Positions 15,535 through 34,156 of a DNA stretch of 45,227 nt are shown piece after piece. Under the pieces are notes generated by a model. The model was not told the origin of the DNA. It saw only the letters and a program-made list of their open reading frames with translations, and ran no database searches. Position 1 is the stretch's first letter; each line of letters begins with the position of its first letter. A program made the translations under genes and the position numbers. The stretch spans positions 1 through 45,227 of the forward strand of contig CASEIC010000046.1 in NCBI GenBank assembly GCA_949288045.1, given 5' to 3'. The stretch is from an uncultured Mycoplasma sp. (lineage in GTDB: Bacteria; Bacillota_I; Bacilli_A; Mycoplasmatales; Metamycoplasmataceae).

Positions 15535-15846
15535 ATGCCAATTAAAAAAATTATCACTACCACTACTGAGTCAATCCCAGGAAAAGAGTATGAAATAATA
15601 GGTGTTATTTCTAGTGATAGTTTATCAGTATCATCAAAACTCATGATTCAACATAAAGGTTTAGATAATAATAATTTAGAAAAATTGAAACAAGTTGCCC
15701 AAGATTTGGGTGCAGATGCAGTGGTTGGAATAAGAATTTCACATGATTATGGTCGCGAAACTTATATAGGTACTGCCGTTAAATTTAAGTGAAATTATAA
15801 AAAAATTACCGAAGAGATAAAAGACAACAAAAAGGAGTGTAAATAA
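15535..15846 (+). CDS. UPF0145/YbjQ-like protein, copy 1
   Basis: A protein of 103 residues. It has the YbjQ/UPF0145 pattern: TTTESIPGKEYEIIGVI at the N-terminus, DLGADAVVGIRI in the middle and YIGTAVKFK at the end of the core. A charged extension of about 18 residues after a TGA-encoded Trp is not found in the two paralogues (15849-16115 and 33262-33495). The family forms ring-like oligomers and is sometimes called heavy-metal-binding, but no metal ligands are evident here. It starts 2 bp after infB. Confidence 0.75.
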
Positions 15847-15848
15847 TT

Positions 15849-16115
15849 ATGAAGTTAATTATTGATAGGTTATTAATTACTACAACAGAAAATATTCCGG
15901 GTGCTGAGTATTCAATTATTGGTTTTGTTGGAGGATTAAGTGATAACAATCCATTTGCAAAAGATGCTTTGAATACTGGATATGTTAGAATGCAAGAAGA
16001 AGCTGCAAAACTTGGAGCAGATGCAATTGTTGCAGTTAAATGTGAAATTAAAGGTGATTTTGCATATTTCTATGGTACTGCAGTTAGATATAAAGCTATA
16101 AGAAAAATAAAATAA
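15849..16115 (+). CDS. UPF0145/YbjQ-like protein, copy 2
   Basis: A protein of 88 residues, adjacent paralogue of the preceding gene: LITTTENIPGAEYSIIGFVGG, then KLGADAIVAVKCEI and YGTAVRYKAI. AAGGAG ends the previous gene and serves as ribosome site. Its stop overlaps the rbfA start by one base, so it is built into the infB-rbfA operon. The function of the family is unknown. Confidence 0.75.
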   Translation: MKLIIDRLLITTTENIPGAEYSIIGFVGGLSDNNPFAKDALNTGYVRMQEEAAKLGADAIVAVKCEIKGDFAYFYGTAVRYKAIRKIK

Positions 16116-33098: not shown

Positions 33099-33174
33099 TG
33101 GTGGCTCCGGCAGGAATCGAACCAGCGACACACAGAGCTTCAATCTGTTGCTCTACCGACTGAGCTACAGAGCC
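33099..33174 (-). tRNA. tRNA-Phe (GAA)
   Basis: A 76-nt cloverleaf with encoded CCA. The acceptor GGCTCTG pairs with CGGAGCC (one G-U), anticodon loop TTGAAGC, T-loop TTCGATT. Last gene of the minus-strand tRNA operon. Confidence 0.95.
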
Positions 33175-33175
33175 A

Positions 33176-33252
33176 TGGCGGTCCAGACGGGGATCGAACC
33201 CGCGATCTCCTCCGTGACAGGGAGGCGTATTAAACCACTTTACCACTGGACC
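33176..33252 (-). tRNA. tRNA-Asp (GTC)
   Basis: 77 nt with encoded CCA and discriminator G. Acceptor GGTCCAG pairs with CTGGACC; anticodon arm CCTCC-CTGTCAC-GGAGG; T-loop TTCGATC. Separated from tRNA-Phe by one base. Confidence 0.93.
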
Positions 33253-33261
33253 TTAATAGTT

Positions 33262-33495
33262 TTAATCAAGGAATTTTATTGCTGTACCAATAACACATGT
33301 TGATCCATTAGATGTTGTGAAGACTCTTATACCAATAAGCCCATCAGCACCCATACTTCTAGCTTCTTCAATACATTTTTCTAATGCTTTATTGAATTCT
33401 GTCTTACTTAAAAATGAAACAATTCTATTTCCAGAAGTAATACCTAATACTTTGTATTTTCTATCAGGTAAGAAATCCACTGTTGCTACAAACAT
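33262..33495 (-). CDS. UPF0145/YbjQ-like protein, copy 3, inside tRNA operon
   Basis: A protein of 77 residues: FVATVDFLPDRKYKVLGITSGN, then RSMGADGLIGIRVF and CVIGTAIKFLD. The LP-(K/E)Y-(V/I)(L/I)G, MGADG(L/V)(I/V)GIR and GTA(I/V)KF marks match the two copies at 15535 and 15849. RBS AAGGAG lies 5-6 bp before ATG. The gene sits between a tRNA-like element (its 3' end directly abuts the ribosome site) and tRNA-Asp (9 bp away), so it must be co-transcribed with the tRNAs unless it has its own promoter, which I do not see. Confidence 0.78.
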   Translation of the reverse strand: MFVATVDFLPDRKYKVLGITSGNRIVSFLSKTEFNKALEKCIEEARSMGADGLIGIRVFTTSNGSTCVIGTAIKFLD

Positions 33496-33508
33496 TTTTC
33501 TCCTTTTT

Positions 33509-33587
33509 TGCTCATTTAAGGATTCGAACCCTATCTTCTAATTCAATTAATGAATAAGATGTAATACCAATTATACTATTATGAGCA
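33509..33587 (-). tRNA. tRNA-like element with abnormal anticodon arm (pseudo-tRNA?)
   Basis: A 79-nt element with a 7-bp acceptor (TGCTCAT with ATGAGCA), a D-arm-like segment with TTGGT, and a good T-arm (TAGGG-TTCGAAT-CCTTA). The region between D- and T-arm is about 6 nt too long: it folds into a 9-bp stem with one T-T mismatch (TCTTATTCA/TGAATTAGA) closed by a 5-nt loop TTAAT, so no normal 7-nt anticodon loop forms. CCA is not encoded, unlike all eight neighbours. It could be a decayed tRNA, an unusual tRNA, or a tRNA-like processing/regulatory structure for the downstream UPF0145 gene. The anticodon cannot be assigned. Confidence 0.55.
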
Positions 33588-33589
33588 TA

Positions 33590-33665
33590 TGGTTGCGGAG
33601 ACAGGACTTGAACCTGTGACCTTCGGATTATGAGCCCGACGAGCTACCAACTGCTCTACTCCGCG
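33590..33665 (-). tRNA. tRNA-fMet (CAT), initiator
   Basis: 76 nt with encoded CCA. Starts CGCGGAG; the first base faces A (C1-A72 mismatch), the initiator hallmark. Anticodon arm TCGGG-CTCATAA-TCCGA keeps the GGG side, with one G-U replacing a G-C. Confidence 0.93.
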
Positions 33666-33670
33666 ATGTA

Positions 33671-33709
33671 AAGGCTTGCGCCTTGATTGGTAAGAACTTT
33701 TAATTCTTA
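33671..33709 (-). other. Two hairpins in the Ser-fMet tRNA spacer
   Basis: On the minus strand, TAAGAA/TTCTTA (33691-33709) and AAGGC-GCAA-GCCTT (33671-33684, with a GNRA-type loop) form two small hairpins in the only long plain spacer of the tRNA operon. No T run follows. They may be processing signals or simply neutral. Confidence 0.45.
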
Positions 33710-33711
33710 AA

Positions 33712-33804
33712 TGGCGGGCAAAGAGGGATTTGAACCCCCGCGGGCCGTGAAGCCCCTGCTAGTTTTCAAGACTAGTCCCTTCAGCCAGACTTGGGTATTT
33801 GCCC
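33712..33804 (-). tRNA. tRNA-Ser (TGA)
   Basis: 93 nt with the long variable arm of class II tRNAs and encoded CCA (discriminator G). Anticodon arm CTAGT-CTTGAAA-ACTAG; acceptor GGGCAAA pairs with TTTGCCC. Confidence 0.95.
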
Positions 33805-33807
33805 ATA

Positions 33808-33884
33808 TGGTGGTCCCACCAGGACTTGAACCTGGAACCTACCGGTTATGAGCCGGGTGCTCTAACCAATTGAGCTATAGGACC
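33808..33884 (-). tRNA. tRNA-Ile2 (CAT, lysidine-modified)
   Basis: 77 nt with CCA. The anticodon loop CTCATAA reads CAT. Acceptor GGTCCTA, D-arm and position among the three CAT tRNAs fit the minor isoleucine tRNA that needs TilS, rather than elongator Met, which is the next gene upstream. Confidence 0.85.
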
Positions 33885-33916
33885 ACAACTTTTTAGTTAG
33901 ATGAATAAGACTCATA

Positions 33917-33993
33917 TGGTAGCACCGAAGAGAGTCGAACTCTTGACCTTTCGGGTATGAACCGAACGCTCTAACCAACTGAGCTACAGTGCC
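33917..33993 (-). tRNA. tRNA-Met (CAT), elongator
   Basis: 77 nt with CCA. Anticodon arm TTCGG-TTCATAC-CCGAA with the TTCATAC loop typical of elongator Met; acceptor GGCACTG pairs with CGGTGCT (one G-U and a terminal G-T). Confidence 0.9.
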
Positions 33994-33994
33994 A

Positions 33995-34071
33995 TGGTGG
34001 AGAGGAAGGGAGTCGAACCCTCTACCTCCTGCGTGCAAGGCAGGCGCTCTAGCCAAGTGAGCTACCCCCCC
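33995..34071 (-). tRNA. tRNA-Ala (TGC)
   Basis: 77 nt with CCA. Anticodon loop CTTGCAC. The acceptor GGGGGGG pairs with CCTCTCC and contains the G3-U70 identity pair for AlaRS plus a second G-U at position 5. Confidence 0.94.
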
Positions 34072-34079
34072 AAATAAAA

Positions 34080-34156
34080 TGGTGAAGAAGACAGGATTTG
34101 AACCTGCGACCGCTTGGTCCCAAACCAAGTGCTCTACCAAGCTGAGCTACTTCTCC
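34080..34156 (-). tRNA. tRNA-Pro (TGG)
   Basis: 77 nt with CCA. Anticodon loop TTTGGGA; acceptor GGAGAAG pairs with CTTCTTC (with G-U). First gene of the operon. Confidence 0.94.

Follow-up and report, generated by a model that had tools for sequence, protein, structure and literature searches.

Element W, a tRNA-like sequence positioned between tRNA-fMet and tRNA-Asp in a tRNA cluster of an 805-kb draft Mycoplasmatales genome (whose proteins read TGA as Trp), may belong to a small class of tRNA-derived RNAs of this order in which the acceptor, D and T arms are kept and a functional anticodon arm and CCA end are gone, and which would work in cis as punctuation, a proposal for and against which we consider the probabilities to be evenly balanced. 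Judged from their sequences, the elements described here appear to constitute a family of non-chargeable, non-decoding tRNA-like RNAs. The window denotes the whole stretch of DNA that was analysed (45,227 nucleotides), and the principal features are listed in Table 1.

Table 1. Location of element W, its neighbouring features and element T
Feature	Position	Strand	Basis and remarks
tRNA-like element W (acceptor of 7 bp, D and T arms, aberrant anticodon arm, CCA absent)	33509..33587	-	Rfam tRNA score, fold, chance null
Host tRNA cluster Pro-Ala-Met-Met-Ser-fMet-[element-UPF0145]-Asp-Phe	33099..34156	-	ARAGORN
tRNA-fMet	33590..33665	-	ARAGORN, Rfam 66.2 bits; CCA end 2 nt before element W
tRNA-Asp	33176..33252	-	ARAGORN, Rfam 65.1 bits; begins 9 nt after UPF0145 stop codon
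UPF0145 (YbjQ_1) gene, 77 codons (33265-33495) plus TAA stop	33262..33495	-	Pfam PF01906, E 2.8e-6
Shine-Dalgarno AAGGAG	33500..33505	-	Sequence; 3 nt after W, 4 nt before ATG
Element T	L121:2560-2615 (G288 C3)		Between tmRNA and tRNA-Thr; no gene

Structure and position of element W

ARAGORN identified eight tRNAs in the cluster and skipped the fMet-Asp interval, which holds an insert of 337 nt composed of 2 nt, the 79-nt element, 13 nt, the UPF0145 gene with its stop codon and a further 9 nt. The two flanking tRNAs had been described in an earlier note on this DNA as usually adjacent, and this was borne out in all five same-genus genomes whose cluster was read (G002, G004, G008, G010 and G011), where the interval measures 1–7 nt and contains neither element nor gene.

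The tRNA-like element reported in this interval is real, as established by its Rfam score, its cloverleaf fold and a chance null. Against the Rfam tRNA model (RF00005) W scored 27.2 bits (E 5.6e-4 per 805-kb genome), thereby failing the gathering cut-off of 29 bits, and a genome-wide scan with this model returned no other sub-threshold match at E ≤ 0.001; covariance-model scoring thus identifies W as tRNA-like and does not call a normal tRNA with a valid anticodon. The minimum-energy fold is a cloverleaf both for W alone and in its mRNA context (z −2.3 against shuffles). Under a Markov null of the same composition, with 7/7 acceptor pairs, 5/5 T-stem pairs and a D stem required, 0.0006 matches are expected per 337-nt interval, and a scan of the window for this layout returned W and the tRNAs of this cluster only.

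The acceptor (TGCTCAT/ATGAGCA) and the T stem (TAGGG-TTCGAAT-CCTTA) are fully paired (7/7 and 5/5, respectively), in agreement with the good acceptor and T arm described previously, and the D arm (GTAT-AATTGGTA-TTAC) has three pairs; the D and T loops are of the ordinary tRNA type, with one extra unpaired base at the stem junction. The anticodon arm comprises some 27 nt of poor hairpin (3 bp, a mismatch and 5 bp, closed by a loop of 5 nt), so that the loop size given earlier was correct, the stem having eight pairs and one mismatch instead of the nine base pairs proposed; the 5-bp anticodon stem and 7-nt loop of a canonical tRNA are absent. As had been stated earlier, W encodes no CCA, AAAAAGGAGAAAAATG following directly after its last base. 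The element was also said to abut the ribosome binding site of the UPF0145 gene, which holds true with a gap of 3 nt, and in the predicted fold of the W leader the acceptor is paired and the Shine-Dalgarno sequence mostly unpaired (mean p 0.73).

Two other tRNA loci in the genome of the window present a different arrangement: tRNA-Thr(GGT) (L049:900-1011) is followed just after its CCA by a small hairpin and then an apparent folD, and tRNA-Trp(CCA) (L008:210-320) by a small hairpin, likewise just after CCA, and then a Shine-Dalgarno-like site, with no tRNA-like element at either. The hairpin after CCA is an alternative design of the tRNA-mRNA junction, and since these junctions do without a tRNA-like element, such an element is no general need.

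Related elements in other genomes

A search of genome contigs for a homologue of this UPF0145 gene gave a single match, L024, which is from another family (genome G150, the same loci of which appear as G288) and in which the tRNA operon reads Tyr-Gln-[element Y]-UPF0145-Lys-Leu-Gly-Ser. Element Y begins 4 nt after the CCA of tRNA-Gln, has an acceptor CTGTCTC/GAGACAG, a D arm TAGTTTATGTAGTTAAAAC and a T arm TAAGG-TGCAAAT-CCTTA, and is followed downstream by CAATTAAGGAG and then ATG. The unit tRNA-CCA / 2–4 nt / element / Shine-Dalgarno / UPF0145 / 8–9 nt / tRNA is therefore found in two families and two operons, and its reappearance in a different family, in a second tRNA operon, indicates that it is movable or heritable as a unit. 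The earlier note had offered a decayed tRNA moved in with the gene; mobility or inheritance as a unit is upheld by this finding, whereas plain decay is a poor fit to the relatives, in which the arms are kept by compensatory changes (see below). At the fMet-Asp site itself neither component was present in the five same-genus genomes read, and the complete unit recurs in the Gln-Lys operon of another family.

The UPF0145 proteins of the window and L024, both encoded inside tRNA operons, are 68% identical. In a phylogenetic tree the copies of G000, G288, G302 and G304 fall into a single group (91/94), separate from the genus paralogues, the fork not being firmly settled; the members of this group come from one species in genus g1 and from three in family f3, a distribution suggestive of inter-family transfer. 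Within it, only the two tRNA-operon copies stand behind an element. The genus paralogues are at best 41–47% identical and are located outside tRNA operons. Two tandem divergent paralogues are present in the window itself (15556-15786 and 15873-16091, + strand; sharing 36% and 22% identity, respectively, with the tRNA-operon copy), flanked by frames that resemble the C-terminal part of infB and the beginning of rbfA, an arrangement that recurs around paralogues in L018, L020 and L021. The only function assigned to UPF0145 is ‘putative heavy-metal-binding’.

The element is separable from the gene, as it occurs without the gene at the orthologous site in three genomes of the sister genus g49. In G302 and G304 a Y-orthologous element occupies the same Gln-Lys interval, and in G307 a new element at Gln-Lys was found through the family-model search (52.6 bits), which passes the RF00005 cut-off (34.6 bits) despite having no normal anticodon arm. 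The Gln-Lys site of G303, G284, G285 and G217 holds no element. Element T, the second element of the genome that carries Y, also lacks an anticodon arm, a 7-nt linker replacing both this arm and the variable region, and scores 41.6 bits against the Rfam tRNA model, above threshold; in G284, which belongs to the genus of G150/G288, tmRNA and tRNA-Thr are 2 nt apart. None of these elements, Y included, was called by ARAGORN, and tRNA annotation would therefore usually skip them.

The family model used (R2) was built from four elements (Y, T, G302 and G304). Applied with stricter filters to 320 genomes of the order it returned five elements in four genomes, and a more sensitive run on 40 genomes of family f3 gave no further element. 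A model of ordinary tRNAs minus the anticodon arm (R1) matched T and missed W and Y, and was useless for a wide search since it matches ordinary tRNAs too. Matches to a tmRNA model that covered the T arm only in other genomes proved to be ordinary tRNAs. In contigs L089-L097 of genus g49, most tRNA-tRNA gaps of over 30 nt contain a hairpin rich in A+T, and several of these hairpins include TATAAT.

tRNA-like sequences also occur on two viral contigs (L132:3247-3320 and about L133:1545-1620), neither of them called by ARAGORN; one closes an array of phage tRNAs directly ahead of a terminator-like hairpin, and the other lies between phage genes. Both share the signature TAGTTTA..TAGTTAAAAC .. 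GGTGCAA (D arm, T loop) of the elements, and phage records searched with two element sequences gave no match. Derivation of the Y-type elements from phage is possible but unproven.

Conservation and covariation

Covariation was assessed on five aligned elements (Y, T, G302, G304 and G307), in which all 80 pair cells are standard and none of the 16 pairs of the acceptor, D and T stems is lost in any element. Eleven of these pairs covary, with both sides changing, namely all seven of the acceptor and four of the five in the T stem; none of 500 shuffles reached this value and no slid register came near it. The D stem is invariant and hence uninformative either way on selection. The linker that replaces the anticodon arm measures 7, 7, 7, 13 and 18 nt and has no conserved sequence. 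With all three arms maintained, two of them by compensatory changes, and the anticodon domain varying freely, the acceptor-elbow half has been retained and decoding lost. Conservation extends beyond pairing in the D-arm sequence TAGTTTA..TAGTTAAAAC and the T loop TGCAAAT.

W was left out of this count because it is a single sequence with an extra junction base and ordinary-tRNA loops that the family model does not pick out, its score of 16.8 bits being no better than that of ordinary tRNAs. Found in one genome, W is accordingly linked to the other elements by structure and context, and it alone is placed less securely in the family. The loss of pairing that marks a tRNA pseudogene is not seen: the relatives are 100% paired, and W, which has no orthologue for comparison, retains its complete acceptor. 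This acceptor shares nothing with that of the nearest candidate source, tRNA-Trp, and neutral decay to such a distance (50–90% substitution) would keep seven of seven pairs with p of about 0.002–0.01.

CCA addition and 3′ processing

No element encodes CCA; the ordinary tRNAs of these clusters do. The CCA-adding enzyme (PF01743) was found in none of eight genomes, several of which are incomplete, so that one absence could be missed but hardly eight, and the search was positive in ten bacterial control genomes. Full-length RNase Z above the cut-off was likewise found in none of the eight; only weak partial matches were obtained, nearly all within reading frames of some 540 aa that resemble RNase J, the naming being inferred. 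These absences agree with the published picture of the Mollicutes, in which RNase P, RNase R and RNase J are kept, the CCA enzyme has been lost, and RNase Z is dispensable and has been lost in many species (PMC4014445). With neither an encoded CCA nor a detectable CCA-adding enzyme the element should not be chargeable, and it cannot decode.

Discussion

The sequence data fit one part of the function first proposed for W, i.e. that of a tRNA-like, non-decoding punctuation mark at a tRNA-gene boundary, and speak against the other, its excision with CCA addition. A second cut at the 3′ side followed by CCA addition is unlikely as the enzymes were not found, and such a cut would part the element from its own Shine-Dalgarno sequence. 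Like t-elements, W and Y place a tRNA-like fold at the boundary of a coding gene; each stands 2–4 nt downstream of a tRNA with a Shine-Dalgarno sequence directly following, a spacing from which co-transcription may be deduced. Together with the 8–9 nt between stop codon and following tRNA, the 2–4 nt after the tRNA CCA fit RNase P punctuation on both sides.

RNase P recognises the acceptor-T half. In the proposed mechanism it would cut the tRNA transcript at the 5′ end of the element, freeing the upstream tRNA with a trailer of 2–4 nt to be removed by RNase R, and the element would stay on the mRNA as a folded 5′ end right before the Shine-Dalgarno sequence. RNase P acting at the next tRNA would free the mRNA 8–9 nt past the UPF0145 stop codon, and the folded leader would protect the message against decay from its 5′ end and may aid translation. 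Where no gene follows, the element would serve only to mark the 3′ limit of the tRNA or tmRNA that precedes it. Tight coupling is opposed by genus g49, where element and gene are not tied together. The wider notion of a dedicated bacterial tRNA-punctuation device, in which anticodon-free and CCA-free modules follow a tRNA or tmRNA, RNase P sets the boundary and the same small protein gene has at least twice been embedded in a tRNA operon with a folded 5′ end, is tentative, and we place it a little short of even probability.

Decay is a competing explanation for W, which would then be a functionless, decaying tRNA pseudogene, either brought in with the UPF0145 gene or left behind by it. Its occurrence in one genome only, just under the tRNA threshold, with five same-genus genomes bearing no trace of it and with its anticodon arm and CCA gone, speaks for such a history, yet the intact acceptor, wholly unlike that of tRNA-Trp and improbable under neutrality, the compensatory changes in the relatives and the same element-gene order in another family render this reading rather unlikely. 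That W is instead a working tRNA whose anticodon arm happens to be unusual is hardly credible: its near-threshold score is outweighed by the lack of a 7-nt anticodon loop, by the missing CCA in clusters whose ordinary tRNAs encode one and in genomes in which no CCA-adding enzyme was found, and by three relatives that have no anticodon arm altogether.

The element might also be cut out to act in trans as a free small RNA, for instance as a decoy for RNase P, RNase R, EF-Tu or a tRNA-modifying enzyme, with the gene incidental. The copies that lack the gene (three genomes at Gln-Lys, and G288 downstream of tmRNA) and the D-arm and T-loop sequences conserved beyond pairing would be accounted for in this way; without RNase Z or CCA, however, there is no obvious means of forming a 3′ end, and a Shine-Dalgarno sequence only 3–6 nt from the end of the element in W and Y points to a leader, making a trans-acting role quite unlikely. 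A cis-regulatory leader that controls UPF0145 translation in the manner of a riboswitch (cf. yjdF), and not a processing signal, is distinctly unlikely. Pairing of AAGGAG with CCTTA, the 3′ strand of the T stem, would be possible in W and Y, though not in the gene-less copies; the predicted ensemble of W contains no such pairing and leaves the Shine-Dalgarno sequence mostly open, so that sequestration by the T stem was rejected, and the persistence of gene-less copies and the lack of a match to any riboswitch family also count against control of this type. Rfam riboswitch models gave no match in the window, nor, with E values up to 10 allowed, in the fMet-Asp interval. An internal promoter, suggested by TATAAT in the D arm of W and the linker of Y, was discarded as it cannot explain the covariation, and the hexamer is common at this A+T content. 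The effect of a tRNA-like leader on translation is itself documented in vitro, where tRNA-like structures before a Shine-Dalgarno sequence raised translation 2–6.3 fold and mutation of the ACCA end caused minimal loss (PMC9142559), a result that would suit regulation as well as the leader of the punctuation model.

If punctuation by these elements is true, it would show how a strongly reduced kit of RNase P, RNase R and RNase J, with neither RNase Z nor the CCA enzyme, cuts mixed tRNA-mRNA transcripts. The elements further offer naturally occurring material on which to test tRNA-like leaders and tRNAs reduced to the acceptor-elbow half, and no report of such elements in Mollicutes was found in the open-licence literature.

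tRNA punctuation is a mitochondrial idea. The present elements share with mitochondrial punctuation and t-elements a tRNA-like fold located where a tRNA meets an mRNA, or at an mRNA boundary, and an expected cutting by tRNA-processing enzymes, but they reside in bacterial tRNA operons, have no RNase Z for a 3′ cut, are predicted only to be cleaved and, in the best model, are kept as a leader. The yjdF riboswitch likewise places a tRNA-derived fold just upstream of a bacterial Shine-Dalgarno sequence (PMC9142559); W differs in standing inside a tRNA operon, in having lost the anticodon domain and in giving no yjdF match in Rfam. The tRNA-Other pseudo-tRNA of Bacillus cereus is also a tRNA-like RNA not used in translation, but it retains an anticodon for Trp and undergoes poor aminoacylation (PMC3399842), whereas the elements have neither anticodon nor CCA. 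The tRNA-like domain of tmRNA resembles them in combining an acceptor and a T arm with no anticodon. The elements are distinguished from it by the lack of a tag reading frame, of CCA and of G3-U70, the third acceptor pair being U-A (W, G302, G304 and G307), G-C (Y) or C-G (T), by being separate from tmRNA itself, and by the presence of a full D stem.
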